From Candidatus Nitrosopolaris wilkensis (GTDB lineage Archaea; Thermoproteota; Nitrososphaeria; Nitrososphaerales; Nitrososphaeraceae): a stretch of 36,870 bases of DNA. The position numbers were made by a program, and so were the translations under genes. Where the stretch lies: positions 1 through 36,870 of the forward strand of contig QHBN01000240.1 in assembly GCA_003176995.1 (NCBI GenBank), given 5' to 3'. Shown piece after piece: positions 22,987-36,870 of this stretch (its first letter is position 1; each line of letters opens with the position of its first letter). The notes beneath the pieces are model-generated. The model was not told the origin of the DNA, did not search any database, and saw only the letters and a list, made by a program, of their open reading frames with translations.

Positions 22987-23601
22987 TAATTCTTTCTATC
23001 TTTCATTGTGATTTCGTGATTGAGACTCCATACCACTTTTTTGGGACATAAAATTCAATTGGTTAGTTAGACTAGTCTAATTGTTCAGTTCATACTATTA
23101 GTAAACTAAACTAATAGTAGGAAATGTTATTTATATTACAGAGTAATTATGACTACCAACTTCAGTAATTATCAGGCACACAAAGTATAGACATTATTTG
23201 AAACAATCAAACAACAGTCACTAATATGAGCCTAATGCTACCTCTGAGCCGCACCAGTTGGGAGGGACAGAGTTACATTTCATAATTCAGGGGACTAACC
23301 AAAGATGAGATGCACTCGTCTTGCTGATTTACCATTCCTAATACAAACTGAGCTCGCTTATTCTGGGAGAAACCCATCGGGTAGAATGTGTAGGCGACTC
23401 ACCAAAAGTGATTGAATTATTTAAACTAACTTTGTAGTCCTCACAGTCCGAACTATTAGCACAGACACAACATTGTATACACCCTACCGAATTATTTACA
23501 ATATCTGTCTAATTATTTGATAATATTAAGGTTATTTTTATTTATATTATTTTTACTTGATCATAGTAACATCGGACTTATAAAAACTATAAATAGTCAA
23601 A
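22987..23601. other. 615-base gap with palindromes, no gene called
   Basis: After the palindrome pair at 23067-23119 comes a TATA-like TTTATATTA (about 23129) and a short frame (ATG 23149, 13 codons). A second short frame at about 23305-23415 gives 36 residues starting MRCTRLADLPFLIQ. Neither is supported by similarity I recognise. Confidence 0.3.
23067..23119. repeat. 14-bp palindrome next to a 10-bp-stem hairpin
   Basis: TTAGACTAGTCTAA (23067-23080) is a perfect palindrome. Twelve bases later TACTATTAGT (23093-23102) and ACTAATAGTA (23110-23119) form a perfect 10-bp stem with a 7-base loop. The pair follows the broken short-chain dehydrogenase and precedes a TATA-like sequence, so it could be an operator array or a terminator. 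Confidence 0.45.
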
Positions 23602-23616
23602 TTGATATTAAGTTGT

Positions 23617-23946
23617 ATGAGCAATTACAGACTTCCAATAAGAATAGAAATACTCTCGTCTGCCGAGAATGTTTCTTCGCTCGATAACGATCTTCATAAG
23701 ATTCTGGTAGATGCGTCTGATAGTTGTGAATACACTGCTTTTGTTGATAAGGAGGGAGTTACACAAATAAAGATACAATGTACTATTACTGAGGAAGAGA
23801 AGCAACATGCATGGACTCAATTACGGTTAAAACATGCAACCGACTGTTCTTTGTCGGCGGAGCCAAGTGCGGTACCAGCCAATAATGTGCAGTCAGACAC
23901 TGATACTCATTTTATTCATGAGGTTCCAGTGGGTGACGAACTTTAG
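23617..23946 (+). CDS. Hypothetical protein (109 residues)
   Basis: Starts MSNYRLPIRIEILSSAENVS; an alpha/beta beginning with alternating strands (EYTAFVDKEGVTQIKIQCTI) then a helix (TEEEKQHAWTQLRLKHATDC) and an acidic flexible tail. Two TATA-like elements (TATAAAAA and TATAAATA, 23580-23597) lie 20-37 bases before the ATG, which favours this start over the in-frame TTG at 23602. Soluble; no family recognised. Confidence 0.6.
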   Translation: MSNYRLPIRIEILSSAENVSSLDNDLHKILVDASDSCEYTAFVDKEGVTQIKIQCTITEEEKQHAWTQLRLKHATDCSLSAEPSAVPANNVQSDTDTHFIHEVPVGDEL

Positions 23947-24918
23947 ACTCAAATTTATGGATAACGTTGGGGTTCATGTCAAACTATAGTTGTTGACTGA
24001 AATAGCGAGAAAGTAGTGTCTAGTCCATCCCTTCTGTATCGAGAATGTTTGAACCTTAGCCCTGTCAATACTAAATGATATCCTACTATTGTAAGTAGAA
24101 GCAGCTGGTTTTATCGCGTATCCCCGAAACCGTCTAAAAACCCGCAGCCAAGTGCAGTCACAAATGGCATAAGCTCAGAATTCATTGAAGCTGACTCTGA
24201 ACTCTTGTATGATTTGGATGTCCTCATGGGAGCTCACCACAGACATTATCGATTATTTGTAATGTCGCCTCCTCAGTCTTATCGGGAGCATTCTTCATTT
24301 GACCAGCGTTGCTTTGTCCCTATGATTATCTAATCAAGGGCTTGCATGGAGAAATTGGCTATTTCATCTATTACTAAAATTTATTATTGCCACTTGTAGC
24401 GGACACTGCTGAATACTGCTGAGACGAAAAGCAGGATGAGTATTACTCCGATGCAAGTTGGTGGATCACGTGCATACACAATGTGAGGATGATTTGCTTA
24501 GCGCCATATATGAAAAGAACTGTCTATGTCATCTTATTAATGGTAACATTGATAACAATGCCACAGAAAATCTGAAGATTTGTGTACGAGCGATTTAACA
24601 ATGATTACAGGAAAAAGACTTGCATATAATTTCACTTTGATTAAATATATTTGAATTTCGTTCACTGTCTCCAAATTTATTACAACTATCGTGAGTTCTA
24701 AACAATGTACCAGTAGAAGTGGTACCCTCAGTATAGTTATCTAAATATCATCCATTAACGGGCAGGATTACAGCTAATTCCGAGCGATTTCTGAGTGTGT
24801 TTAACCTATATTCAAACACTTTGATGGGCGTTGTTAGCAGGTCAATAGAGCGTTATGTTAAGAGCAGATAAATTTTACTATATGATTTATACTAAACATC
24901 CGGAATCATGTGTAGAAT
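23947..24918. other. 972-base gap, only weak coding traces
   Basis: An 85-codon plus-strand frame without start codon (about 24076-24332) includes the segment EADSELLYDLDVLMGAHHRH, and a TTG frame at 24458-24598 encodes 46 residues. Neither is recognisable. The promoter TTTATAC at 24886-24892 belongs to the next gene. Confidence 0.3.
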
Positions 24919-25197
24919 TTGAAGTATAGGTGCCATACAGATATTGTAGCCATGATACTTGATGCAGCGGTATCCGGTGAAACCAAAACGAAAATAATGC
25001 TGCAAGCTAACCTCAATCATATCCAAATTAAACGATATATTCCTTCATTGCTATCGCAGAAGCTTATCAAACAAAGAATCGACCTAGCATCGCCGTCTCA
25101 AGTATACACAACAACAGAAAAAGGACACAGTTTTTTAGAAAGGTATAGAGAAGTCCAATTGCTAGACGTCACGCTTCGACACGATAAGAATGCATAA
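24919..25197 (+). CDS. Winged-helix DNA-binding protein (ArnR-like)
   Basis: 92 residues forming a single winged helix-turn-helix: DIVAMILDAAVSGETKTKIM as helix 1 and 2, NHIQIKRYIPSLLSQKLIKQ as the recognition helix region, and the wing SQVYTTTEKGHSFLERYREV. The pattern (TKTKIM...L..YL..L....L......YxTTEKGxxFL) is common among small archaeal regulators. The start is TTG; TTTATAC about 27 bases upstream fits leaderless initiation. The gap downstream (around 25250) contains a GTG frame beginning MKYRSRSEL, resembling the start of a second copy that then dies out. Confidence 0.82.
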   Translation: MKYRCHTDIVAMILDAAVSGETKTKIMLQANLNHIQIKRYIPSLLSQKLIKQRIDLASPSQVYTTTEKGHSFLERYREVQLLDVTLRHDKNA

Positions 25198-25767
25198 TGG
25201 AAGGAATAAAAATAAGACGAGATCCCGACCTGACTTCGCTTGTTTTGTGAAATACAGAAGCCGTTCGGAATTATATGAATGCGTCGTGGTAATATGACAT
25301 AATAGTTTCAGGCAGCTTTCGTTGCCAAATTACTCATAATACCTTAATTTACACTGCTTATCGATCTTTGTTCTGATGAAAGAACGTGCACATTCTAATC
25401 AAAATATAGATATCATTGTACTAATTTTTTCGCGAGCTACCGCAGAGCTAATTCTTGAAGAGATTGCTACCTAACAATCTTTACTAAATATCTATATGGT
25501 CTTCTGCTTCTTCCATTCTTCTGCTTCTTTAAAACCCGTTAGCCTTCTATTGGTTTTGTTGGTTTTGCTTTGATCCGTATTTCAGAAGGTTTGATCTCAG
25601 TGGGGCAATTTGATAAGTATATACTTCCTAGTCACCCCGAGACATAGCGCCAGTATTTAATTCAAGGTTCTAATAGTTTACAAACACAAACTATTAAATT
25701 ATATTTTCAAAGTCTTTTTAAACTATTAAATAGTTACGAGAGATTACTAATGGTATAGATAAATGAG
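25198..25767. other. 570-base gap upstream of the integrase
   Basis: Holds the short MKYRSRSEL frame noted with the winged-helix gene, a 32-residue ATG frame at 25376-25474, a duplicated TTCTGCTTCTTCCATTCTTC-type tract near 25500-25530, and AT-rich sequence with repeated AACTATTAAAT (about 25687-25735) directly before the integrase gene. The repeats could be integrase-binding or promoter sequences. Confidence 0.3.
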
Positions 25768-26781
25768 ATGCAAACTGTTGATAACTTCCTAGACTCACTC
25801 AAATCAGAAAGAACTAAAGAGCAATATGCATTTCATTTAAAACGCTTTACCCGATGCGAAAAAGTATCGGATAAAACACCCGATACTCAGATTGTCGATT
25901 ACCTTGTGCAAATGAAAAAAGAAGGTTTATCTTCTTCATATAGAAACATTGCACTTGCAGCAATCAAGCATTACTATACTATGAATGATGTAGTTCTAAA
26001 CTGGAAAAAGATAGCCAAGTTTATTGGCGAACCAAAGTTTGACAACCAAATCAGAGGATATACCCACGAAGAGATTCAAAAGCTGGTTACTGTTGCCGAC
26101 GTAAAATACAAGGCAGTTATTTTAATGCTAGCGTCAACTGGTATGCAAAGGGAAGCTTTGGTTCAAATCAATCCTTTAAAAGATATGGAATATTTGAACG
26201 ATTACCAATTGTACAGAATAAGGATATACAGAAAAACAAAATGGGAGCAAATTTGCTTTACAACGCCTGAAGCTGCTAACGCAATAGACTTGCATATGCA
26301 AACTCGAAATAGACGTTATTTCCATGACGTTCACCCGCAAGCACTTTCAGACAGAATAAGAGACTTGGCCATTAAAGCAGGACTAGGAAAATTACATCCT
26401 CTCACTGAAACTTCTAGACATGGAGTATACAGAAATGATATACCTGCAGTTCATGGACTACGTAAATTTACAATCACACAAATGGCTAAGGCTAAAGTTG
26501 ATACCGAAATTGCCAAACTGCTGACAGGTCATACGATAGGAGTCAGAGGAAGGTATCTCAACTATAGTGAAGACGACTTGTTACAAGAATATCTGAAGGC
26601 TGTAGATAGCCTAACCATAAACGAAGAGAATAGATTAAAATCGGAAGTAAAAGTGTTGGAGGAAAAGAATGCAGAGATTGAATCATTAAATGCCAAAATA
26701 AATTCAATGCAGCAAACACAGGATCAGTTCATAGAATTATCTAAAAAGTTGTATGAAGCTGGGATTCTGAAGAAAGATTAA
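25768..26781 (+). CDS. Tyrosine recombinase / integrase
   Basis: 337 residues. A SAM-like core-binding domain at about 1-90 (SERTKEQYAFHLKRF) precedes the catalytic domain: R128 in STGMQREALVQI, K156/K158 in RIYRKTKWEQICFTTPEA, the HxxR box VHGLRKFTITQMA (H229, R232), H255 in LLTGHTIGVRGRY and nucleophile Y263. Most relatives have GMR-x-(G/S)-(E/A)-L; here the aligned Arg is Gln127 with Arg one step later, which may weaken catalysis. A C-terminal coiled coil (about 285-330) is added. It is the key gene of an integrated element and ends against a fragment of rfcS on the other strand. Confidence 0.88.
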   Translation: MQTVDNFLDSLKSERTKEQYAFHLKRFTRCEKVSDKTPDTQIVDYLVQMKKEGLSSSYRNIALAAIKHYYTMNDVVLNWKKIAKFIGEPKFDNQIRGYTHEEIQKLVTVADVKYKAVILMLASTGMQREALVQINPLKDMEYLNDYQLYRIRIYRKTKWEQICFTTPEAANAIDLHMQTRNRRYFHDVHPQALSDRIRDLAIKAGLGKLHPLTETSRHGVYRNDIPAVHGLRKFTITQMAKAKVDTEIAKLLTGHTIGVRGRYLNYSEDDLLQEYLKAVDSLTINEENRLKSEVKVLEEKNAEIESLNAKINSMQQTQDQFIELSKKLYEAGILKKD

Positions 26782-26952
26782 GTCCGTATGAATAGCTGCA
26801 AATAACAAATGCGACAGCTCATCATCTGGAATATTGATAAGTTGACGCGGAGCGTTGACAATTTCTTTTTGGTCTACAACTCCATCTAGTGTCAATGGCC
26901 GATATTTTTCAACCCACATCAAATTTGAGAGATTTTTGTTTACTGTTGGCAT
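26737..26952 (-). pseudogene. rfcS: 5' fragment of replication factor C small subunit
   Basis: Residues 12-50 (MWVEKYRPLTLDGVVDQKEI, then RQLINIPDDELSHLLFA) match the start of archaeal RfcS, the clamp-loader ATPase. Similarity ends exactly at LLFA, where intact proteins read LLFAGPPGTGKT, at about base 26804; the remaining codons are random and run antisense into the integrase 3' end. The fragment keeps its own promoter (26974-26983) and ATG. Since RfcS is essential, a complete gene should exist elsewhere. The fragment is best explained as the displaced 5' part left at one end of an element that integrated into rfcS. Confidence 0.8.
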
Positions 26953-26973
26953 GTGTGCTGGAATACCTGACTA

Positions 26974-26983
26974 TTTTTATATC
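26974..26983 (-). promoter_or_regulatory. TATA box of the rfcS fragment
   Basis: The minus strand reads ATATAAAAAT, 22-31 bases upstream of the ATG at 26952, so the fragment still carries native transcription signals. Confidence 0.5.
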
Positions 26984-27093
26984 ATAATAAGTTAACTAAA
27001 TAACTCGCCTCCGAGTTTAGCTCGCAGCTTAACAAAAGCTGTCTTGACAAAAGATATAACGATCAATAATTCTAATAAGTACCGACACACATT

Positions 27094-27330
27094 ATGTCGG
27101 TTTCAAGAATCCTACAAGAACGGTATGTGATTCCTATAGTTTGCGGCAGATGTTCGCATGACTGGAATTGTACTGGAAAGAATCCATATTTGACTACGTG
27201 CCCTTATTCTAGAACCAAGTTATTAATTTCTAAGAACAGACGAGCAATCCTACGAACTGGTCCGACTTCTGGGGAGAGGGCAGACCAGTTCATAGTCGTT
27301 TCCAACAAAGGTCGTGACCCCATTGGATAA
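27094..27330 (+). CDS. Small zinc-ribbon-like protein lacking the fourth cysteine
   Basis: 78 residues: MSVSRILQERYVIPIVCGRC, then HDWNCTGKNPYLTTCPYSRT. Many small archaeal proteins carry C-x-x-C-x-H-x-W-x-Y-x-G-x(n)-C-P-x-C; here the last Cys is Ser, though an extra Cys in WNCTG could substitute. Probably nucleic-acid-binding. First of a run of very small Cys-pair proteins in the putative provirus. Confidence 0.6.
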   Translation: MSVSRILQERYVIPIVCGRCSHDWNCTGKNPYLTTCPYSRTKLLISKNRRAILRTGPTSGERADQFIVVSNKGRDPIG

Positions 27331-27484
27331 GTCTCTAGTTGGTTCTAGCATACTTAAAACCTTCGATATCAACCAATGTTTGACTGAAGCCTGTGCTGAA
27401 TGCACGGGTTCGTATAGTGGTTTGGGGATAAAGGTTCGTTGTAAATGTGATTGCCATAGTGGTAGTAGAAGAATGTCGAAGTGA
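27323..27484 (+). CDS. Cys-rich micro-protein (53 residues)
   Basis: Begins at TTG 27323, overlapping the previous stop by 8 bases. Contains C-x4-C-x2-C (CLTEACAECTG) and CKCDCH, seven Cys/His ligands in about 33 residues, which is a strong metal-binding pattern. The opposite-strand open frame here (27369-27617) has no such pattern and is taken as a shadow. The non-ATG start is uncertain. Confidence 0.42.
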   Translation: MDKSLVGSSILKTFDINQCLTEACAECTGSYSGLGIKVRCKCDCHSGSRRMSK

Positions 27485-27662
27485 CATATTTAGAAAAACT
27501 TCCTAATATTTCTAAGGCTGGAACAGTTGACGTCACGGCTGCTATAGTTGCCACAAATACAGATTTGTGTGTGTGTGTGCAGCACAATTTGAACATTCCT
27601 CCCTTCCTATATCCCACGAAGGAATTTATCTAAATATACACCATATCACTAGAGATATTACT

Positions 27663-27688
27663 CTATACTATACTATACTATACTATAC
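27663..27688 (+). repeat. Pentamer repeat (CTATA)5
   Basis: Five tandem CTATA units plus one C, placed 55-80 bases before the regulator ATG at 27743. Every unit holds a TATA-like core, so the repeat probably is or contains the promoter, and its copy number could tune expression. Confidence 0.6.
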
Positions 27689-27689
27689 A

Positions 27690-27720
27690 TTGGTACCAAG
27701 GTACCATTATTGGTACCAAT
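27690..27720. promoter_or_regulatory. Three GGTACC-centred palindromes, likely operator
   Basis: TTGGTACCAA (27690-27699), GGTACC (27700-27705) and ATTGGTACCAAT (27709-27720) are perfect palindromes with centres 8 and 12 bases apart. They lie between the CTATA repeat and the ribosome-binding site of a predicted ribbon-helix-helix protein, the usual place for an autoregulatory operator. Binding by that protein is inferred. Confidence 0.6.
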
Positions 27721-27742
27721 CCTTTTTTTGGAGGTTTACGAT

Positions 27743-28252
27743 ATGAATGGTGAGGATAAATGTCAGCTAAAGGTTTGGGTTTCTCATTCATGTCTAGACC
27801 GTCTCAGGAAGCATATTACTCATAAGTATCCTGATTTTAAGAAGGGTTGGTTAAGTTTGGAGGTTGAAAACCTCATAAATCAAGGTATTGCTAGGTTTAA
27901 GGAAGGGAAGTTAGGGGAGCAGCACACACACACATTAAGACAAAGCAAGAAGCATCAAGAGTTTTTGAGGGTAAAGGGAGGGGTGATTAACTATCTAGTG
28001 GATGAGTTCGGAGATCCTATCGCTGTGCCTGAACGTGATGTGAGAGAAGCGATCATGGCTACGACTGACAGAAGGGACAAAAGGACTGTAGATGCTTGGT
28101 TGAAGATCATGTTTGCTAAAGGACTTTTCAGGGAGGCAGCGGGTAACCGTATTATCATACAGGATGAATTTACTGACACTGATAAAGAGACGAAACAAAA
28201 GGATGAAGAAGCTGATAGAATTCTACGGGCATACCAAACAGGAAGTGGGTAA
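27743..28252 (+). CDS. Ribbon-helix-helix plus winged-helix-like regulator
   Basis: 169 residues from ATG 27743, chosen because GGAGGT (27730-27735) sits 7 bases upstream; the frame is open 11 codons further but those cross the operator. The N-terminus CQLKVWVSHSCLDRLRKHIT and KKGWLSLEVENLINQGIARF fit a beta strand plus two helices of the RHH fold. A basic linker follows, then LRVKGGVINYLVDEFGDPIA and KRTVDAWLKIMFAKGLFREA, which resembles a winged helix. A strong Shine-Dalgarno is unlike the mostly leaderless neighbours and suggests acquisition. Likely a plasmid or viral regulator or partition factor. Confidence 0.6.
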   Translation: MNGEDKCQLKVWVSHSCLDRLRKHITHKYPDFKKGWLSLEVENLINQGIARFKEGKLGEQHTHTLRQSKKHQEFLRVKGGVINYLVDEFGDPIAVPERDVREAIMATTDRRDKRTVDAWLKIMFAKGLFREAAGNRIIIQDEFTDTDKETKQKDEEADRILRAYQTGSG

Positions 28253-28492
28253 TGCTAATGATTTGTGTTTGTAGTCATGCTCTACGGTTCTTCATGGTAC
28301 GGAATATTGCATGTCTGCGATTGTACTAAATTCATTCAGGACACTAGTTATGACCGTTTACAGTAAAATACATTAAAATCCAGTTATGAACTAATTTCTG
28401 AGCTTCTATTATTATAGGAAGTATAAGTTGTAGCTACTGAATATGGTTTTTCGCAAGCACAACCCGCGCAAAAAGGGATAGTTTGTAGGAAG

Positions 28493-28723
28493 TCATTTCG
28501 CTGGTTGCAGTATTGCATGTAAAGTTGAGCAGGTCATATTGGAGTCATGTAGAGATTGTTCATCAATGCAAGGCTCCCCATATGGAGAAAGTTCGGCTGT
28601 AGTCTTGTGAGGATAATCTGTTGTGTTTGGGACATGTCCTACTAAGATTACGAAGGAACCGAAAGCAACAACTATGACTATACCAACCACTATGGTTATT
28701 ATGCCCGCCGTACTATCATTCAT
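28493..28723 (-). CDS. Small single-span membrane protein
   Basis: 76 residues starting MNDSTAGIITIVVGIVIVVA, with one membrane helix at about 6-29 and an exterior hydrophilic tail holding two cysteines (GEPCID and MTCST). No family recognised. It is divergent from the helicase remnant that starts five bases away, so a junction between two DNA segments may lie here. Confidence 0.5.
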   Translation of the reverse strand: MNDSTAGIITIVVGIVIVVAFGSFVILVGHVPNTTDYPHKTTAELSPYGEPCIDEQSLHDSNMTCSTLHAILQPAK

Positions 28724-28727
28724 TTGA

Positions 28728-29574
28728 CTCTACTTTTTTACTGAAAGACGGCTCCTAACTATATCCCTTTCAGCGGCAAATCCTGCATTTGCTGATGAGT
28801 TTGTAAAACAACTTGACGAATTAAGAGTTAAGAAATACATTATTTGCTTATAGACTTGTACATTATAATGACAAAATACCCAACATAAGACTAAACATCA
28901 CAAACAGAGAAAAGCAGTTATTCAAGTCACTTTTGAGGGTATTCCAAAGTACAGATACACAATCTGAGCTATTAAAAGTCGTAAGCCATTTTGTCAGAGA
29001 AAGGAGGGAGTTGAATACTGACAGCTTGCATTCTACACTTTACAGATTAATTAAATTCCTAGTGGATACAGAGCATACTTATGAATTTGAATCTAGCCGA
29101 ATATGGAGAGAGCTAAAAGCATGGTTAGCAGGTTCCGAAATACCCTACAAACCATTATCATATGAAATCTCTCAGTTTGGGACTATATCACAGAAGCAAA
29201 TAACTGAGATCCTAAAATCAGACTTTTCAGCCAAGTCACCGTCACATAATAGCAACAAGGCAAAACTGACTTTTGATAAGGCCATACTTGATAGACTTGA
29301 AGGCAAGTATAACACAGACCTTAATGTTGAGGTGTCCGAGTCTACTGAGGAGGATCTGGAAAGTGAGGATGATCCTACTCATGATCCTACTCAACAAAAT
29401 CGTGCTCAAAATGGGGGTTTTGAGGAGGATGAGGAGGATGAGGAGGATGTACAGCAAAAGGGGGTTCTAGATAAGGGTAGGCCAAAAGAAGGGCTAGAGG
29501 ATAGAGATGATAGAGGTACCTCTTCTTCTTCTAATAATATACATAATCTGAACAAAAGAAGAAAGAGAAGATAA
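28728..29574 (+). pseudogene. C-terminal remnant of an element-type replicative helicase, broken by a 7-bp duplication
   Basis: An open frame without start reads TERRLLTISLSAANPAFADE, then FVKQLDELR; deletion of one 7-base unit in TTAAGAGTTAAGAA (28821-28834) continues it as NTLFAYRLVHYNDKIPNIRL, NITNREKQLFKSLLRVFQ and into the long frame at 28933. The segment resembles the region behind the AAA+ core of D5-type or primase-helicase proteins of archaeal elements (ERR...ANPxFAxEF...LRNxLxxYRLxHYxDxIPxIxLN). A winged-helix-like part (PLSYEISQFGTISQKQITEI) and an acidic tail follow, with three GAGGAGGAT repeats (29422-29448). The ATPase domain is missing. The 7-bp duplication and the lost 5' end mark it as dead. 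Confidence 0.55.
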
Positions 29575-29740
29575 AATTGGTTGAGAAATGGAAGTTGAAG
29601 GATTGGAGGCACGTAGCTAAAATAAAAGACAGGTGGGATAAGCCCACCGACGCTCTGATTGAGGAGTAGAGCAGGTTAGGGAACATGTTGGTGCAATTGT
29701 TGTTAATATGGCCCAATACCATATGCAGTTGAATAGATAA
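29547..29740 (+). pseudogene. Frameshifted remnant of a small helical protein
   Basis: Two consecutive frames read as one protein: EQKKKEKIKLVEKWKLKDWR, KIKDRWDKPTDALIEE to TAG 29667-29669, then, shifted by one base, VEQVREHVGAIVVNMAQYHM to TAA 29738-29740. A TTG at 29577 could start it. It overlaps the tail of the helicase remnant, whose own end (NLNKRRKRR) may itself be a frameshift product. Family unknown. Confidence 0.4.
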
Positions 29741-29788
29741 TTGGGCTAATAGATGTAAGTATTAATAGAGTTCTTTGGCAGTTAGGCT

Positions 29789-29953
29789 ATGGTATTTGCT
29801 CCGGTATGTAAACATGAAATCCCAACAGCTAATGATATGTGGATAGAGGTTTTTAACACTCAGGAATCAGAAACAGGGAAAAAGATAGGTACATACGTCA
29901 TGTTTAGTTGTCCTGAATGTCATACAATTATTGATATCAAAGAAAAGACTTGA
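29789..29953 (+). CDS. Zinc-binding micro-protein (54 residues)
   Basis: Starts MVFAPVCKHEIPTANDMWIE and ends MFSCPECHTIIDIKEKT. One Cys-x-His near the start and a C-P-x-C-H knuckle near the end make a probable zinc ribbon. The opposite-strand frame 29937-30137 overlaps its end and lacks support. Part of the island's series of tiny Cys-pair proteins. Confidence 0.55.
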   Translation: MVFAPVCKHEIPTANDMWIEVFNTQESETGKKIGTYVMFSCPECHTIIDIKEKT

Positions 29954-30225
29954 ACTTTTTATAATCCAAGTATTTCTCTGTTCCGCTTTGGGGTAACACC
30001 CACCGCTTAGCCTTCGTCTTCTGTAGACTGGCGGCGGTGTAGCAATTAATGGCGGTCATACTCATCCGGGTTGTAGCGATGCAATAGGAAGCATGTGTTT
30101 TAACCCACCTTGAAGATAATTGCTGTGGTGGTCTCATTTCCTCAAATATAAAATGGTGGAGTTAGACTTAGCTGTTACTAATGTCAGAAACGTCTTTGGA
30201 CTATAGGATTTAAACCACTAAGCAA

Positions 30226-30399
30226 CTACGTATCAGATGCAAAATCTCTCTTCATACACTCTTCACAGTATACTTCCTCTGCGCTTTGACCAGGTGGCCT
30301 AAATCCTAGAATAAGATCACAACCATGACATTTCATCATAGTCCATCCCATTCTTCTAAATTTATCCATCTCTGTATCATTATCCCATTTTCCTGACAT
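30226..30399 (-). CDS. Zinc-binding micro-protein (57 residues)
   Basis: Begins MSGKWDNDTEMDKFRRMGWT and carries two Cys pairs, MKCHGCDLIL and VYCEECMKRDF, 18 residues apart: a compact zinc ribbon of the C-x2-C...C-x2-C type. Too short for most gene finders but well formed. It is divergent from the gene at 30457. Confidence 0.55.
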   Translation of the reverse strand: MSGKWDNDTEMDKFRRMGWTMMKCHGCDLILGFRPPGQSAEEVYCEECMKRDFASDT

Positions 30400-30456
30400 T
30401 CTTCTTACCTGTGCATCTCTGCTTTAATTAATCTAACAATACTATCTGGACTTTCC

Positions 30457-30693
30457 ATGTTATACCAAATCATTCTTGCATTTCCTGACTTGTCAAGTAT
30501 AGTGACATCACCTCTTTTGACACCATCCCATGAACTGACTGCAAAATATGAAGCCCATGAGCATGAACCTTGGTTCTGTGATAAAGATCACACCAGATTA
30601 ATTAAGAATACAACAGTTGATGCGATAATAGATTACTATTGCAAAGAATGTAACACAACTTTAATCCATCCACATTGCCACCTAAGAATATAA
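30457..30693 (+). CDS. Small Cys/His protein (78 residues)
   Basis: The convincing part is the C-terminal half: HEHEPWFCDKDHTRLI, DYYCKECNTTLIHPHCHLRI, giving C-x3-H, C-x2-C and H-x-H/C groups consistent with zinc binding. The N-terminal 30 residues are hydrophobic and may not be translated; an internal TTG or GTG is possible. No family recognised. Confidence 0.45.
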   Translation: MLYQIILAFPDLSSIVTSPLLTPSHELTAKYEAHEHEPWFCDKDHTRLIKNTTVDAIIDYYCKECNTTLIHPHCHLRI

Positions 30694-30731
30694 ATTGCTT
30701 GAGTCTACTCATTTATTACACTTTCAAAAAT

Positions 30732-30899
30732 ATGGGAAAGAAGTACAGCCTTGGTATAACCACAGTCAAAGATTACATCGACTTAGCCAGATACGATCCT
30801 AGAAAAAATGGGTCATTTTACTTAACACCACTGCCTCCTTACTGGGGCAGTACAGGCTTTCATGCTTGTTTGATTGCTAGGTCAGGATCGTTACGATGA
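30732..30899 (+). CDS. Small basic hypothetical protein (55 residues)
   Basis: From ATG 30732: MGKKYSLGITTVKDYIDLAR, then YDPRKNGSFYLTPLPPYWGS. The frame is open from 30675, but this internal ATG gives a more natural start. Its last 40 bases overlap the end of the minus-strand gene at 30860; at most one of the two ends may be correct. Confidence 0.35.
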   Translation: MGKKYSLGITTVKDYIDLARYDPRKNGSFYLTPLPPYWGSTGFHACLIARSGSLR

Positions 30900-31159
30900 C
30901 AGTGCACAGTTATTCTTCCGTCATCTGCGGATTGCTCAATCTTTACTTCGTATTGATATATTGCTGCTGGAATTTCCACTTCTGACATTGGCATCTCTAC
31001 TTCCTCTTTATGTTGTGTCATACCGGCAATTTGCTCGCTTGTTGATTCTATTTGTTGTGGTTCCTTATGTGTGGGGTAACATTTGTGAATTGTTCCGTCT
31101 GGATTTATTGGTCCACGAATACCGAGTTCTTCTCTCTTTCTGATATCCCAACTGTCCAT
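30860..31159 (-). CDS. Hydrophilic hypothetical protein (99 residues)
   Basis: Begins MDSWDIRKREELGIRGPINP, continues DGTIHKCYPTHKEPQQIEST, and ends KIEQSADDGRITVHCHRNDP. Charged, without membrane segment, with H-x-C and H-C-H groups; typical of virus or plasmid genes. Its ATG shares the tetranucleotide CATG (31157-31160) with the plus-strand ATG at 31158. Confidence 0.45.
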   Translation of the reverse strand: MDSWDIRKREELGIRGPINPDGTIHKCYPTHKEPQQIESTSEQIAGMTQHKEEVEMPMSEVEIPAAIYQYEVKIEQSADDGRITVHCHRNDPDLAIKQA

Positions 31160-31259
31160 GACTCAAATGACAGAAGAACCAAAGAAAAAACTTTCACAGG
31201 CGCAGCTGGATACAATTGCGAAAATCAAAGAACTTGATAGACTATGCCAAAACCTGTGA
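31158..31259 (+). CDS. Micro-protein (33 residues), helical
   Basis: MTQMTEEPKKKLSQAQLDTI followed by AKIKELDRLCQNL: a charged N-terminus and an amphipathic helix. Its end overlaps the next ATG (31244) by 16 bases, suggesting coupling. Short, so only moderately supported. Confidence 0.33.
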   Translation: MTQMTEEPKKKLSQAQLDTIAKIKELDRLCQNL

Positions 31260-31429
31260 TTTGTGTACCCTGTTCAATTCCACGCCGTAAATTCTTCGAC
31301 GACTGCAAAGACCTAAGAATTCATAAACGTATTGTGGAACTGCCTAAAAAAAGAGTATGCATAAATGGCAAACTGTCGTCGGTAACAATTACTAGAACTA
31401 AATTGATACACGGTCTCTTTCATGTTTGA
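31244..31429 (+). CDS. Small basic Cys-pair protein (61 residues)
   Basis: MPKPVICVPCSIPRRKFFDD with C-x2-C, further Cys at CKD and RVC, and a strongly basic middle. Possible zinc-binding nucleic-acid protein. It overlaps the 3' end of the minus-strand membrane gene by 117 bases, so only one of the two overlapping regions is probably functional. Confidence 0.35.
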   Translation: MPKPVICVPCSIPRRKFFDDCKDLRIHKRIVELPKKRVCINGKLSSVTITRTKLIHGLFHV

Positions 31430-31831
31430 CGTACTCATTAATATTTTATCTTTCAGAACGCGACAAGACGCTGTTGTATCAAAACTATTAGTGATCTGTC
31501 TGCTTACCGAGTAATATCCCCAGATCAGAATCATTATCGAGACAATTCGAAGAGGAAGCTGATAAATTGATAGAAAAGAAGATATTCCTACTCCTGCTCC
31601 GCTCCCAAATAAGTATACGAAAAAAGAGCCTAATGTAGGAGTACAACTTGCACACAGGCTTGAAAGCACACCTAGTGAAGACCCAGAAAAAAGGGCTGGA
31701 GTGGAAAGAGTATCCGCCCTTCCGATCCCTGTTCTTAATTTTGCTCTGGTCGAACGTACAGAGATTAAATAAAATACATTCATGCTCACGATTATTCCCA
31801 ATAGAACAGACGTCTTCTTCTGTATGTTCAA
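31313..31831 (-). CDS. Membrane protein with a CASC motif
   Basis: Up to 172 residues; the likely start is M17 at 31783 (MNVFYLISVRSTRAKLRTGI). Three hydrophobic segments: one near the start, SLGVLSSLCASCTPTLGSFF and GSGAGVGISSFLSIYQLPLR into VSIMILIWGYYSV. The SSLCASC motif inside the membrane plus a LPLRIVSIxxLIW segment recalls a group of small archaeal membrane proteins I know only as uncharacterised. The C-terminal 50 residues are hydrophilic and overlap a plus-strand frame. Confidence 0.5.
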   Translation of the reverse strand: MNIQKKTSVLLGIIVSMNVFYLISVRSTRAKLRTGIGRADTLSTPALFSGSSLGVLSSLCASCTPTLGSFFVYLFGSGAGVGISSFLSIYQLPLRIVSIMILIWGYYSVSRQITNSFDTTASCRVLKDKILMSTSNMKETVYQFSSSNCYRRQFAIYAYSFFRQFHNTFMNS

Positions 31832-32141
31832 CGAGTTACACGAAGACCCTGACTTTCAAAAATCTATCCAGTTTTTTAAGGACAACCACTGCGATTGGAA
31901 ACTAAATATGAAGATACAGCCGGTCTTATTCAACGAGGCCAACAACAAAGCTATGCTATCCCATTTACGAGAAATGCTATCAGGTGGTTATCTCATGATA
32001 GACAAACGATTTGAGACTTTGCTTCTACAGTTACACCAATGCACTGATCAAGAGGGACGGGTCCTTAAGGATCAGATGTCAGCAGGGTCAGATGTATTTG
32101 ATTGCGCAAGAATGGCGATGGGATCTTATGAGTTTACTTAG
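31782..32141 (+). CDS. Terminase-large-subunit-like C-terminal domain, probably a remnant
   Basis: 119 residues. The second half, KAMLSHLREMLSGGYLMIDK, FETLLLQLHQCTDQEGRVLK and AGSDVFDCARMAMGSYEF, follows the layout of the nuclease domain end of terminase large subunits of head-tailed viruses (order: hydrophobic strand ending in a basic/acidic residue, helix with L-x2-QL, then a D-x3-D(C/S)xRMA helix with the last metal Asp). The ATPase domain and first nuclease residues are missing; the upstream DNA codes for an unrelated membrane protein on the other strand, so it looks truncated. It suggests the island derives from a tailed archaeal virus. Confidence 0.5.
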   Translation: MLTIIPNRTDVFFCMFNELHEDPDFQKSIQFFKDNHCDWKLNMKIQPVLFNEANNKAMLSHLREMLSGGYLMIDKRFETLLLQLHQCTDQEGRVLKDQMSAGSDVFDCARMAMGSYEFT

Positions 32142-32151
32142 TGATAACGAT

Positions 32152-32280
32152 ATGAAATCTCAAGCAATAAAAATTGATAATATAAAGTCTGCTAGGCTTG
32201 GAGAATGGAGACTTAATGATTTTAGAGTTTTGCCTTCAAACTATGTCTATAGCCGAAGTGAGCAAAAAAGGAGTAAGTAA
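32152..32280 (+). CDS. Small basic protein downstream of the terminase-like gene
   Basis: 42 residues from ATG 32152: MKSQAIKIDNIKSARLGEWR, then LNDFRVLPSNYVYSRSEQKR. Close spacing (10 bases after the preceding stop, 12 before the next ATG) suggests one operon 31782-32703. Function unknown. Confidence 0.45.
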   Translation: MKSQAIKIDNIKSARLGEWRLNDFRVLPSNYVYSRSEQKRSK

Positions 32281-32292
32281 GTAAGATGGATT

Positions 32293-32703
32293 ATGACAAC
32301 GAATCACCCATATGAACAAATGAAAGCCAATCGCAGGAAGATTAACATCGGTCTATGGCGTGGTGGATATTCTGGTTTCTATGATCGTCAGCATTTACCC
32401 CAATGCCCTGGTTGTATTCCCGCAATAAAATTAGAACCGGAGAAAACTCCTGACGGCAAAGATGGCTGGCGCTGTCCTAAGTGCGGTACTTTCTCTGCAT
32501 ATGAAGAAATAACACCAGCACAAAAAGACAAAACACTAAAGCCGAAAGACACTTCAAACTCACAACCTCTAATTATATCACAACCAAAAAAGAAGAAAAC
32601 AAAAAATGTTCTTGGAAATGATATCGACGATGACGAGATAAGAGCAGAGTTGAAAAGCTATGGCGTTGATGCGGCTGATCCTAAGGATTACCTTGCGTCA
32701 TGA
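32293..32703 (+). CDS. Zinc-ribbon protein, probable virion or packaging-associated
   Basis: 136 residues: MTTNHPYEQMKANRRKINIG, then two Cys pairs C-x2-C in QCPGCIPA and C-x2-C in WRCPKCGTFSAYEEI forming a zinc ribbon, followed by a Lys/Pro-rich linker (KKKKTKNVLGND) and an acidic helix (DDDEIRAELKSYGVDAADPK). It follows the terminase-like gene, as small zinc-ribbon genes often do in archaeal proviruses (inference). Confidence 0.6.
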   Translation: MTTNHPYEQMKANRRKINIGLWRGGYSGFYDRQHLPQCPGCIPAIKLEPEKTPDGKDGWRCPKCGTFSAYEEITPAQKDKTLKPKDTSNSQPLIISQPKKKKTKNVLGNDIDDDEIRAELKSYGVDAADPKDYLAS

Positions 32704-32774
32704 CTAGTCAATTATTTGGTATTTTGGTTTTTGCAATCTGCGTGGATGTCCTGGGAGTGAGACATTTACTTATC

Positions 32775-33371
32775 CTAGTTAGTGAAAAATATATGAATAT
32801 GAGTTGCTAGGCCATTCGCATTGTGAGTTATAGGAATGCAACTATGAACTGGGGTTATCAAGTTTATATCTCCCTCGCAATGGGCAAGGTGGGCGGGATT
32901 GGCCTTATTATCAAGAATAACTTGTCGTAACAAGAGTTTATAGGTTATGACTCCCAGATTGCCTACTTTGACATCCACTTCTTTCCCATTGTTATGTGAT
33001 GCATGAGGAGTCTGCCAAAGAACATTGCAATTAGCGTTACAAGTGGACGAAGGTCCGATATCGTTTAATCCACCCCAAGGCAAACTCATGGCTGTTATTA
33101 TCATGGTTTTGCATGGATTCGCCACACTGCAGGAATTTGGTGGAAGTACAACTGGTATTTGACTTACACTGGGAAAATCGAGGGTACTATTGCAATTAGT
33201 ACTAGGTAGATGTGGAGCTCTACAATCTATTTGTCTTTGTGAAAATTCATTTGCTATATCGATAATTGCGGCTTTAGTTGCGGAAGTACCATAAAACAAA
33301 CAACCATGATTCGATTGTGCTTCAAAAGAGAATGTTCCTCCACCTCCGGGACACACAGCAGAACCCGGCAT
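32775..33371 (-). CDS. Extracellular M15/MepA-like metallopeptidase domain, 3' part of a broken gene
   Basis: 198 residues from ATG 33371, but the same frame is open further upstream to about 33520 (QKGNAQYFISGKDEIHATLD, then TITTKVDKLEQ), so this ATG is internal. The metal-site pattern of the D-Ala-D-Ala peptidase/MepA fold is present: H126 and D133 in SHNNGKEVDVKV and the closing H-x-H (H191, H193) in LATHIHIFF, with SLPWGGLNDIGPS before it. Eight or more cysteines fit an exported protein. It continues the secreted PKD gene 33619-34563 after two frameshifts. Because archaea lack murein, the target may be bacterial peptidoglycan or another polymer (inference). Confidence 0.6.
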   Translation of the reverse strand: MPGSAVCPGGGGTFSFEAQSNHGCLFYGTSATKAAIIDIANEFSQRQIDCRAPHLPSTNCNSTLDFPSVSQIPVVLPPNSCSVANPCKTMIITAMSLPWGGLNDIGPSSTCNANCNVLWQTPHASHNNGKEVDVKVGNLGVITYKLLLRQVILDNKANPAHLAHCEGDINLITPVHSCIPITHNANGLATHIHIFFTN

Positions 33372-33618
33372 CTGTTCTAATTTATCTACTTTTGTTGTTA
33401 TTGTTATCGAACTCTCATCAGTGACGGAGCTATCGCCATCCAGTGTGGCATGTATCTCGTCTTTACCAGATATGAAATACTGAGCATTACCTTTTTGGTA
33501 ATAAGGAGAAGTATATTGGATCCATTTGCAGATGATTGAGCATTCGCCTTCGTGTTTGAAAGGTTGTGAGGGAGTGAAGTCGTATTATTATTGTTTGACT
33601 GCGGACGCACAACTGGTG

Positions 33619-34563
33619 TCAGTGCATTTGGAGAAGGGGATCCTGTAGAGCTTTTATTATTTGGTTGGGAGTCGTTGGCACTTGTACACTATTATTTGGA
33701 ACAGTTTGAAGTCTCTGCAATGTATTATTTTGTTTTGCTCCAGTAGTCGGGGCAGCAGGGTTTGGAGGTGCAGAAGTGACAACCTTATTACCAGTTACCT
33801 GAGGAACTTGTTGTCGTTGCTGTATCGGCTGCTTGAATTGTGAAAATGGATATTGTTGGACTAATGGTCCCTGGGGCGGTTGCCCAGCATTAGGAGATGA
33901 GGCACTGAAAGGAATAGTCGGACGCAGGTAATGAAATTGAGGATTATAGGAAACAGTAACACTTGTGCTGGAAGGATTAGTGCCCGTCAAACCATAGCTA
34001 TCTGATACTGATAAACTAAATGTCAGAACGGCAGGAGCTGTTCCAATTGGTAGTTGTGGGGCAATAAATGTAGGATTCGCAGTATTGCTTGCAAATAAAC
34101 TGACAGGTATTCCAGAAGTCTGCATCCACCTATAAAATGCTATACTACCCCCAGGATTTGCATCATGACTTTTAGAACCATCAAGCATAACTCTACTGCC
34201 TTCGGACACTACTAGATTCGAACCAGCCTCAGCTATCGGAGGATTTCTTCCTCCCTGTTGATTTGGATTTAAAGCTGGAGAGAAAAGAGGATTATTGCCA
34301 GGAACCTGGTTAGGAATGGCATCGGCGGTACCTGGTTGAATCGGGCTTTGTCTGGTAGGGCTAGCAGAACCCACTAGATTATTGTTTCCAGTTGTCGACG
34401 TAGGATTAGGCGTTGTTGTCCTGGTTGTTAGTAGCGATGATTTTGGCAAACTGCTAATGCTGTTCTGCGCTTTTGCGTTAGATAACAACAAGCCTGCGGG
34501 TGCAGAAAATATCAAGCTTAGGACTAGTGTTAGGCATATTGCTACAGAAAATAGTTTTTTCAT
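33619..34563 (-). CDS. Exported protein with PKD domain, 5' part of the same broken gene
   Basis: The open piece encodes 314 residues from ATG 34563 (MKKLFSVAICLTLVLSLIFS), a signal peptide with cleavage after AKAQ. A Pro/Asn/Gln linker precedes one PKD/Ig-like domain at about 108-207 (PPIAEAGSNLVVSEGSRVML; DGSKSHD; TFSLSVSDSYG), then a Pro/Gln-rich stalk. It ends IIKALQDPLLQMH, while a neighbouring frame continues the low-complexity stalk (NNKSSTGSPSPNALTPVVRP, about 33660-33510) into the peptidase frame. PKD domains usually serve surface binding. Together with 32775-33371 the intact protein would have roughly 595 residues. Confidence 0.68.
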   Translation of the reverse strand: MKKLFSVAICLTLVLSLIFSAPAGLLLSNAKAQNSISSLPKSSLLTTRTTTPNPTSTTGNNNLVGSASPTRQSPIQPGTADAIPNQVPGNNPLFSPALNPNQQGGRNPPIAEAGSNLVVSEGSRVMLDGSKSHDANPGGSIAFYRWMQTSGIPVSLFASNTANPTFIAPQLPIGTAPAVLTFSLSVSDSYGLTGTNPSSTSVTVSYNPQFHYLRPTIPFSASSPNAGQPPQGPLVQQYPFSQFKQPIQQRQQVPQVTGNKVVTSAPPNPAAPTTGAKQNNTLQRLQTVPNNSVQVPTTPNQIIKALQDPLLQMH

Positions 34564-34785
34564 CAGTATCACATATTTAGGATAACCCTGAGGAGTTCAA
34601 ACGGCAGAGAGGAGAACAATGATTGATTTGCCCTGAATCGGAGATACACTAAACTTGTGAATAATACCACATATATAAATATCACTCACTGCAAGGAAGT
34701 AACATTATTGTCTTCATTTGCGAATTCTATCGGGTGTGTGACTATCTTTCTCCTCTATCTAATCTAACACTGCCCCTTCAAGTTA

Positions 34786-35102
34786 CTACCTACCAAACTT
34801 TTCATTATATTCCACAATAAAGTCTGCACTGTTAGTAATCGTAAGATAAATGTAGGCTATACCTTGGTCTAGTAGTGAAATGTTTTCATTTCTCTTATAT
34901 TCAATTATGACGAAACTTTTAGAATCAGTATCAAAGGCAAGTGTATCTATGCGTAAATCTTGTAATTGAAATTCCGAAGTTACGAGATCAAAACCAAAAA
35001 TTTCTTGTAAGTTATTCTCTACTAACGATTGTATATCTGTTTCAAGTAAGAATTGTTCTTCGTTAATTTCGGATTTGATGATTTAGTATCGAATATTCTC
35101 AT
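34786..35102 (-). pseudogene. Remnant of a DUF5655-associated PD-(D/E)XK nuclease
   Basis: ATG at 35102 gives MRIFDTKSS; a one-base shift leads into SEINEEQFLLETDIQSLVEN, NLQEIFGFDLVTSEFQLQDL, RIDTLAFDTDSKSFVIIEYK and ends YNEKFGR at TAG 34788-34786. The catalytic pattern D (RIDTLAFD) ... E-x-K (IIEYKR) is intact, and the whole matches the N-terminal nuclease domain of proteins that carry DUF5655 at their C-terminus. The normal continuation (a second nuclease half and DUF5655, about 150-200 more residues) is absent, and no start codon opens the main frame. It is invisible to a simple ORF search. The rest of 34573-35460 carries a TATA-like TTTATATA near 34675 and the micro-protein at 35193. 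Confidence 0.62.
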
Positions 35103-35192
35103 ATGTCATTCAAACCGACCTGTTCAATTTAGCCAGAAACCGACTAAATTTATTATTTGCCGTAAATATGGTGAAAATAAAATATGCAATAG

Positions 35193-35297
35193 TCATTTAC
35201 AATAGCACCTATCACAAAGAACCAAGCCTTGTGCTAATCTGTTGTGATTCTTTCCTTGAGGTATATCTTCTTTACAAATATTACAGATATCATCCAT
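35193..35297 (-). CDS. Zinc-knuckle micro-protein (34 residues)
   Basis: MDDICNICKEDIPQGKNHNR followed by LAQGLVLCDRCYCK: two Cys pairs (C-x2-C and C-x2-C) 20 residues apart, a minimal zinc ribbon. Similar 35-60 residue zinc proteins are frequent in thaumarchaea. Short length limits confidence. Confidence 0.5.
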   Translation of the reverse strand: MDDICNICKEDIPQGKNHNRLAQGLVLCDRCYCK

Positions 35298-35460
35298 CTT
35301 TGTTTATTATTCATAATCACATTATGTAACTGAATCTAAATAAATTCGATGATAATCTATGAGTGACTTGATAGCATAAAACCAACCAACTTACTAAGAA
35401 ATGACTACCATACTTAATTATCCCATTACATACAACCACTAATAGGTGAATAGATGAAAA

Positions 35461-35832
35461 ATGGAGAATCAAGTTAACCATGAAAACGATGATTCCTGCG
35501 GATGCTCAAGTCATCCAGGATCTGGAACGAGTGGCTGTTCAGAATGTGGACCCATGCACGGGAGTGGCAAAATGGAATCTATGGACCCATTCGAGATGGT
35601 GATGGCGATGTGGCACAAAGCATCCTTTGCAGCATACTCAGAGTTGATGATAGAGAAACTAAAGAAAAGGATAGAAGCGGCGAATGGTCCTGTTATGGAC
35701 AAAGTGGCTGATGCATTAACGGAAAGCATGGGTAAAGAGTGGCAGGCTATGATACAAAAATCCTCCGCTAAGAAAGAATTACACGAAAAATTGGCAAAAA
35801 TATTTAGTGAAGCAACTCAAAAACAAAAGTAG
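35461..35832 (+). CDS. Cys-rich N-terminus small helical protein, unknown function
   Basis: 123 residues. The first 30 carry a Cys cluster (CGCSSHPGSGTSGCSECGP) fit for metal binding; the rest is helical: PFEMVMAMWHKASFAAYSEL, then KLKKRIEAANGPVMDKVADA and a Lys-rich end. No membrane segment. The pattern looks conserved, but I do not know a named family. Monocistronic. Confidence 0.65.
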   Translation: MENQVNHENDDSCGCSSHPGSGTSGCSECGPMHGSGKMESMDPFEMVMAMWHKASFAAYSELMIEKLKKRIEAANGPVMDKVADALTESMGKEWQAMIQKSSAKKELHEKLAKIFSEATQKQK

Positions 35833-36259
35833 AATATCCTATGTGGTCATAAACTGGCAACAGGAGACGATATCCTTTCCTCCTTTTTTGACAAAAGAAA
35901 TAACTCATCATGAACGTTGCTCTTCAGACCAACCTAATTAATCTATTTAGATAATCATCGCTATTTTTATATAATCTGAACCCTAAAGATACATCGTCTT
36001 TGAAAGGACTTCCAAGAATAAAGCGAAAATCTCTAGGGTTCTAGAGTACCTTATGCCCAACTTGGATTAAAAAGTTTACAATCTGAAATTATCTGGCTTT
36101 TTGACTTATGGCCAACTTCGAGCGCTATTTCAAGTATTGAACCACAGTCAATGTCCATTGATTATGTTGGTTGCTCCATGACCTTACTCGCAATAGCAAT
36201 TAGCCAGGGAGGCCTTTAGACTTAGGATTATACCAAAAAAATACAGATGAAAATGATAC
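35833..36259. other. 427-base gap between the Cys-rich protein and superoxide dismutase
   Basis: Contains only the transporter remnant at 36037-36219 and T-rich stretches (for example CCTCCTTTTTT near 35880) that may end the upstream transcript. Confidence 0.35.
36037..36219 (+). pseudogene. C-terminal remnant of an EamA/DMT-type transporter
   Basis: A start-less plus-strand frame between two stops reads PYAQLGLKSLQSEIIWLFDL, WPTSSAISSIEPQSMSIDYV and GCSMTLLAIAISQGGL. The order (polar loop, membrane helix ending before a Pro, short loop, then a DYVGCxxTLxAIAISQ helix) matches the last two membrane segments of EamA permeases. About 60 of some 300 codons remain. No other part of the gene is recognisable nearby. 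Confidence 0.4.
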
Positions 36260-36870
36260 TTAATCCAATAGACGCTTCAGAATATTTAGTAAGTGCAGCT
36301 TGTCGAATCGCTTCGCCACATCATCCCAGTTTACCACATTCCACCATGCATTAACATAGCTTGCCTTGTCATTTTTGTACTGGAGATAGTATGCGTGTTC
36401 CCACACGTCGCAAACTAGTAATGGAATAGATGCTGGACCGAGTAGTAAGTTGTGCTTCTCTGCACCGAATGTCAATAATTGACCTGAGAGCGGATCGTAT
36501 GCAAGGATGCCCCAGCCAATGCCTTCCACGGTCTTGGCAGCCTCTGTAAATTGAACCTTGAAACCATCGTAACCGCCGAAATCTTCATTAATCTTGTCAG
36601 CTATAGCGCCGCCAGGTTTTCCGCCACCGCCTGATTTCATGTTAGGCCAGAATATAGAATGTAGCGTGTGACCCGCATAGTGGAAGGATAGGTCTCTCTC
36701 AATAGCTTTAATATCTATACCTTGAAAATTGTTCTTCCTTCCATTTTCTAATTTTTCAAGTGCTGCGTTGGCGCCGTTTACATAGGCAAGATGGTGCTTA
36801 TCATGGTGTAGATTCATAATCTCTTGTGATATATGCGGTTCTAGTGCATCTAGCTTGTAGCACAATAGAT
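36260..36870 (-). CDS. sod: Iron/manganese superoxide dismutase, start beyond the window
   Basis: The enzyme converts superoxide to oxygen and hydrogen peroxide. The visible 203 codons cover nearly the whole protein, from YKLDALEPHISQEIMNLHHD to the C-terminal helices. Metal ligands are in place: His in NLHHDKHHLAYVNGAN, His in HYAGHTLHSIFWPNM, and Asp and His in LLVCDVWEHAYYLQYKND. The N-terminal few residues (usually about ten before YKLDALEP) lie past base 36870; the TTG at 36865 is not the true start. Fe versus Mn cannot be decided with certainty. Important for an aerobic ammonia oxidiser. Confidence 0.94.
   Translation of the reverse strand, partial: LLCYKLDALEPHISQEIMNLHHDKHHLAYVNGANAALEKLENGRKNNFQGIDIKAIERDLSFHYAGHTLHSIFWPNMKSGGGGKPGGAIADKINEDFGGYDGFKVQFTEAAKTVEGIGWGILAYDPLSGQLLTFGAEKHNLLLGPASIPLLVCDVWEHAYYLQYKNDKASYVNAWWNVVNWDDVAKRFDKLHLLNILKRLLD

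Follow-up and report, generated by a model that had tools for sequence, protein, structure and literature searches.

The locus described here is a compact, one-gene cassette at positions 27663–28252 of a contig from Candidatus Nitrosopolaris wilkensis, a member of the Nitrososphaeraceae (GenBank assembly GCA_003176995.1, contig QHBN01000240.1, positions 1 to 36,870 of the forward strand); the whole stretch of 36,870 nucleotides was analysed and is referred to below as the window. The gene (27743–28252, + strand) specifies a protein of 169 aa, and the DNA directly before it carries an unusual succession of features. From the left, these include a tandem repeat, (CTATA)5.2, on the + strand (27663–27688, 100% match), followed by three palindromes, which are strandless, and finally a T7 tract (27723–27729) and the Shine-Dalgarno (SD) sequence GGAGGT (27730–27735), both on the + strand, the latter 7 nt from the ATG at 27743. 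Palindrome 1, TTGGTACCAA, is a full 10-bp palindrome at 27690–27699 with its core GGTACC at 27692–27697, palindrome 2 is a 6-bp GGTACC core (27700–27705), and palindrome 3, ATTGGTACCAAT, is a full 12-bp palindrome at 27709–27720 with its core at 27712–27717. The three GGTACC centres are 8 bp and then 12 bp apart, and palindromes 1 and 3, predicted to be the probable halves of an operator, form an exact 11-nt direct repeat with a spacing of 20 bp, about two helical turns. An earlier reading of this DNA from its sequence alone (the original prediction) had described (CTATA)5, three GGTACC palindromes so spaced, a strong SD and a regulator gene within 27663–28252, and all of these were found where it placed them. 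Its term 'three-palindrome' operator fits the outer two sites in full and the middle one only in its 6-bp core.

Comparison with 500 windows simulated under a first-order Markov model showed how uncommon this arrangement is. A GC-rich palindromic hexamer occurring three times within 26 bp, or a pentamer in five tandem copies, was seen in none of them, and an identical 10-bp palindrome occurring twice within 40 bp in one. A separate run of 200 windows again gave no GC-rich hexamer triples, while any palindromic hexamer, AT-rich ones allowed, was present three times in 57 of the 200. The triple cluster was found only at this locus in the 3.97-Mb genome, where just three GGTACC pairs lie 20 bp or less apart, two of them belonging to the cluster itself. 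The SD is similarly uncommon: among the 27 putative genes of the window that were checked, GGAGGT was present in one, the cassette gene, and two others matched the anti-SD complement over a different 6 nt (AGGTGA at 35461 and GTGATC at 3753), a tally that is rough because the start codons of several genes are uncertain. These counts support the claim of a self-contained gene that has an unusual SD and, at its 5' end, a cluster of palindromes.

No second copy of the locus, with which the suggested tuning of expression by repeat number might be compared, was found in 70 genomes of the family or 400 of the class (sets that overlap). Among 136 other loci (529,439 bases), none held two copies of the same 10-bp palindrome within 40 bp. 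The sequence TTGGTACCAAGGTACC, with one mismatch or less, was present in 4 of the 70 family genomes, the three foreign occurrences being in unrelated sequence. The spaced pattern GGTACC-N2-GGTACC-N6-GGTACC was absent from the viral contigs searched and occurred in six genome contigs, all titled as bacteria, close to what chance alone would give for 18 fixed bases in 257 Gb.

The reading frame of the gene is supported by composition, scoring +12.1 bits with the codon usage of the window against −40.8 to +1.0 for the other five frames. Relatives of the whole protein were sought in the family and class genomes, where the single match in each set (1/70 and 1/400) was the protein itself. Nor were homologues found in 30 candidate stretches of viral contigs or in 47 of genome contigs; a plasmid search gave no match, a phage search one weak match only (E 0.7, 29 residues), the sequences of solved structures nothing below E 1, and Pfam, PHROG and NCBIfam (up to E 5) and PADLOC no match. 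When the protein was divided and searched at E values up to 10, its N-terminal half found matches in 18 of the 70 genomes and its C-terminal half in 9, own genome included. Fourteen of these were translated, giving stops, antisense-looking frames or an unrelated oxidoreductase-like frame, and were taken as chance; these loci were translated forward only, and some of the matches lie on the minus strand, so that the match itself is not displayed there. Three more, read in the correct orientation from longer stretches, revealed no relative.

Structure prediction was more informative for the C-terminal than for the N-terminal part. By eye, the N-terminus has a strand-helix-helix pattern, beginning with QLKVWVS and continuing with two amphipathic helices, which resembles a ribbon-helix-helix (RHH) domain. 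AlphaFold placed helices at residues 15–28 and 36–53 after a non-helical start, in a full-length model that was unusable (predicted local distance difference test, pLDDT, 38). Residues 62–150 folded alone gave a best model, of five, with pLDDT 74 and a predicted template modelling score of 0.60, and an order of helices (H) and strands (E) of H-E-H-H-E-E (H8–28, E33–35, H36–47, H52–65, E68–70, E75–78). This model displays the helices, recognition helix and two-strand wing expected of a winged helix, at residues ~69–140 of the protein, and the lists returned by Foldseek and VIA-align were filled by winged-helix chains, the solved folds including LexA, CAP, Fur and the archaeal-virus protein F93, all at E > 0.01. 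With moderate confidence, the C-terminal half is predicted to be a winged helix; we accept this fold but no nearer relationship, and the confidence is no higher because the remaining four models scored 67 to 48.

We consider it reasonably likely that the cassette is a one-gene autoregulatory unit of an integrated mobile element, encoding a DNA-binding regulator whose C-terminal half is a winged helix. In the proposed mechanism, the 169-aa regulator, perhaps dimerising through an RHH-like N-terminus, would sit as dimers on the two full TTGGTACCAA palindromes, which should lie on about the same helix face because they are 20 bp apart, and the weaker middle core would be filled in addition. Protein bound downstream of the promoter and ahead of the start codon would then block initiation or early elongation, making the gene self-limiting. 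Dimerisation, DNA binding, repression and the transcript start are all proposed on this basis, as are possible further targets on the free form of the element. Counted in favour of autoregulation are the position of the cluster, far beyond chance and directly before the gene, the codon usage, the strong SD, the winged-helix model and the integrase-bearing insertion in which the gene lies (see below). Documented regulators of archaeal elements that bind paired palindromes in their own promoters (PMC4027180, PMC5569661) were counted likewise. We take the gene to be real and well-formed and probably to function in autoregulation, an orphan in sequence and ordinary in kind.

Several results weigh against autoregulation and have to be set beside this. 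The protein is, from the searches above, an orphan, so that conservation lends the model no support. The cluster is special; the single motif is not: TTGGTACCAA has 10 forward copies in its own genome against 8 for the reversed control, which is chance level, and each of the 8 that are not part of the cluster is situated within an open frame of between 116 and 813 codons, which gives no hint of a host regulon. No strong fold match was obtained, no Foldseek hit reaching E ≤ 0.001 and the best VIA Z being 7.7, which models that have no true relatives often reach. Finally, when profiles were compared by hhalign, the score against 16 RHH segments taken from the family genomes was 9.5, a value that 29 of 150 shuffles reached. 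The earlier assignment of an RHH/winged-helix regulator survives, at moderate confidence, in its second part; the first drew no support from profiles, and RHH is for the N-terminus a guess.

The CTATA repeat had been taken for the promoter, which was not established because the strongest TATA-like match lies upstream of it, at 27625–27636 on the + strand (TTTATCTA / TCTAAATA), with 7 of 8 positions agreeing with an archaeal consensus; a stretch of 190 bp would be expected to hold 0.35 matches of this kind. If used, this element would place the transcript start near 27655–27662, and the array and palindromes may therefore be transcribed leader; alternatively, the array would itself be the TATA element and the start would fall within the palindromes. 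Because the T7 tract directly precedes the SD, any RNA with a leader ahead of that SD runs through it. It could be speculated that control is exerted on RNA, with a start at about 27660, the palindromes forming an 11-bp hairpin before T7 as an attenuator, and CCUUU pairing with GGAGG of the SD. Such a role would suit the upstream TATA-like site, the terminator-like match (27700–27717 plus the T run) and the fold of leader 27687–27748, which has an energy of −17.4 kcal/mol (z −2.7, none of 200 shuffles as good) and combines the 11-bp hairpin with pairing of the SD to CCUUU; judged by its sequence, this match and the fold, the T7 tract, which follows the last palindrome and precedes the SD, reads like an intrinsic terminator together with the hairpin before it. 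However, any DNA palindrome that is present twice is able to pair as RNA, so that the hairpin follows from the operator, the z-score is confounded and no independent evidence results. The longer leader, 27660–27760, folds less convincingly (z −1.65, 11 of 200 shuffles folding equally well), the SD stem includes two G-U pairs, Rfam gave no match, and the self-symmetry of each arm would be unneeded if RNA alone mattered. Control at the RNA level is on balance unlikely. We regard as a still longer shot a cluster that acts twice, as DNA operator and as a leader hairpin whose T7 tract and SD-facing pyrimidines set basal attenuation and translation, with the CTATA repeat in the leader as an adjustable spacer; we know of no archaeal element with a combined operator and hairpin switch built on a single palindrome family, although no literature search was aimed at it.

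Other readings assign the sites to replication, to partition or copy control, or to chance. They could be iterons of a replication origin, with the AT-rich CTATA array as unwinding element and the protein as a self-repressing winged-helix initiator, and the open reading frames (ORFs) scanned, which cover 24919 to 35829, indeed include none that was recognised as another replication protein. There are only three short sites, however, all directly before the gene; a replication gene of the element may lie outside the contig, as may its right end; and the paper that offers initiation as a possible role for winged helix-turn-helix (wHTH) proteins calls functional assignment premature without experiment. 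We think an origin improbable. To the original prediction the operator looked like a partition or copy-control site; on that reading the repeats would be a centromere, or the gene would encode the copy repressor for a replication operon. Elsewhere both roles are filled by RHH proteins that have repeated sites, and ORF56 of pRN1 is the copy-control repressor (PMC4234260), but the scanned ORFs gave no match to ParA, ParM or a replication protein, no ATPase was recognised, and no operon gene lies directly downstream. Because no replication or partition gene was recognised there, this label loses its positive basis, and of all the possibilities considered it is the one to which we give least credence. 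Scarcely more credible is a decayed or chance locus, in which the frame is an unexpressed leftover and the cluster coincidental. The gene-poor surroundings and the lack of a homologue in any set searched would fit decay, but the intact frame, its codon score, GGAGGT at 7 nt, a cluster seen in 0 of 500 simulations and a foldable domain would not.

The proposed autoregulatory gene lies in inserted or rearranged DNA (25708–36870, strandless, left edge at ~25707–25710). A contig from the same genus matches window positions 23532–25710 at ~90% identity with gaps and then enters different genes: at the junction this relative carries a frame of 540 aa, and the window enters a tyrosine recombinase instead. 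Right of 25710 there was no match to the contig of the relative, and the right junction was not found up to the contig end at 36870. The integrase gene (25768–26781, + strand) was recognised by PHROG (integrase, E 2e-13) and by Pfam Phage_integrase at E 0.0016, below the family cut-off; relatives occur in 50 of the 70 family genomes, with 13 matches in its own genome, and viral-contig and phage searches with it gave nothing. Cryptic integrated elements of Thaumarchaeota are recognised by an integrase gene and by being missing at the corresponding site in a relative, and both were found here. No exact repeat of the left edge, of 11 to 16 bp, occurs further right in the window as an attachment (att) site; published ones can be 8 bp. 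A terminal inverted repeat (25679–25696 / 28256–28273) was rejected as the element ends because its left arm lies in DNA common to the relative that lacks the insertion. Another inverted repeat of 16 nt (27568–27583 / 27919–27934, 94%), TG/CA-rich, lies with its first arm before the operator and its second within the cassette gene; it is of low complexity and perhaps due to chance.

Between the integrase and the cassette is a 279-bp piece (26796–27074, − strand) that is 91% identical to an intact host locus (G000:C43) with the divergent promoter of rfcS and gins, names that come from a by-eye reading of the translations. Both 5' coding ends are cut off, the rfcS start running antisense into the 3' end of the integrase gene and the gins start rightward, toward the cassette; on sequence grounds, the element has acquired a host replication-gene promoter, one side of which faces the cassette. 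A zinc-ribbon frame at 27094–27330, of known type by eye, was dropped on account of a negative codon score and a sole viral match that was unrelated and repetitive. The frames adjoining the cassette gene are orphans. The next sizeable rightward frame starts ~600 bp beyond the gene and has no family match, leaving no operon partner directly downstream. A long frame at 28852–29574 has a good codon score and an acidic, repetitive C-terminus, but near the head no ATG, GTG or TTG is present ahead of 28933; it has no family match, and a viral-contig search (28852–29571) gave nothing. Among the ORFs scanned, no toxin family was recognised, nor any of replication or partition, and PADLOC had no match in three proteins scanned; genes of these kinds may be among the orphans or beyond the contig. 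At the contig end is a superoxide-dismutase-like gene (36227–36850) with further close copies in its own genome (C32, C229), and the assembly may have broken at 36870 because of them. A paralogous integrase (51% identical) is found on another contig of the same genome (G000:C16, locus L049, 4695–10072), followed by topoisomerase-VI-A-like and D5-type primase-helicase-like genes, named by eye, and this locus is, from its gene content, presumably another integrated element.

If autoregulation is the correct reading, an unrelated regulator and its compact operator would join the few characterised transcription switches from elements of ammonia-oxidiser-like archaea, the host group indicated by gene content. 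In organisms where genetic tools are scarce, they would provide a short part with which expression could be induced or repressed. The cassette would likewise illustrate how an integrated element that is cryptic, and in which no replication gene is recognisable, stays quiet.

Known systems offer several points of comparison. The met boxes of MetJ are tandem palindromic 8-bp sites with centres 8 bp apart, the same spacing as between palindromes 1 and 2, but the third site here is at 12 bp, and membership of the MetJ family is without support. Closer in setting are Stf76 of pSSVx and ORF80 of pRN1, wHTH regulators of Sulfolobus plasmids whose own promoters hold small palindromes in pairs: TTAA-N7-TTAA, with 11 bp between motif centres, occurs there twice at a distance of 60 bp (PMC4027180). 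They share with the cassette an element-borne winged-helix protein, predicted here, and small palindromes before its own gene. They differ in length (76 and 80 residues against 169), in the sequence and spacing of the sites, and in having these upstream of the start rather than adjoining the SD; family searches gave no sequence relation between them and the 169-aa protein. SvtR of SIRV1, an RHH repressor that acts on its own gene and spreads along several sites (PMC5569661), resembles our protein, as do other archaeal-virus RHH repressors, in being a small regulator of an archaeal element with self-repression, proposed here. Its sites are imperfect inverted repeats, its RHH fold is proved, where ours is a guess, and it has no winged helix.

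The gene orf56 of pRN1, which heads an archaeal plasmid operon, is also a self-contained repressor gene, like the one proposed here, but is cotranscribed with the replication gene orf904 (PMC4234260); no replication gene was recognised downstream of the cassette, which does not fit copy control of the pRN1 type. A similar element as a whole is NitUzo-E2, the smallest cryptic integrated element of Thaumarchaeota, bounded and 2.6 kb long, with an integrase, a wHTH protein and hypothetical genes (PMC6563490). The same kinds of genes are present here, the wHTH protein by prediction, in an insertion of at least 11 kb if it is single, and the likeness is one of gene content. Set among these systems, the protein and its sites are new in sequence, the strategy of self-control is ordinary, and the cassette represents no new class of system.
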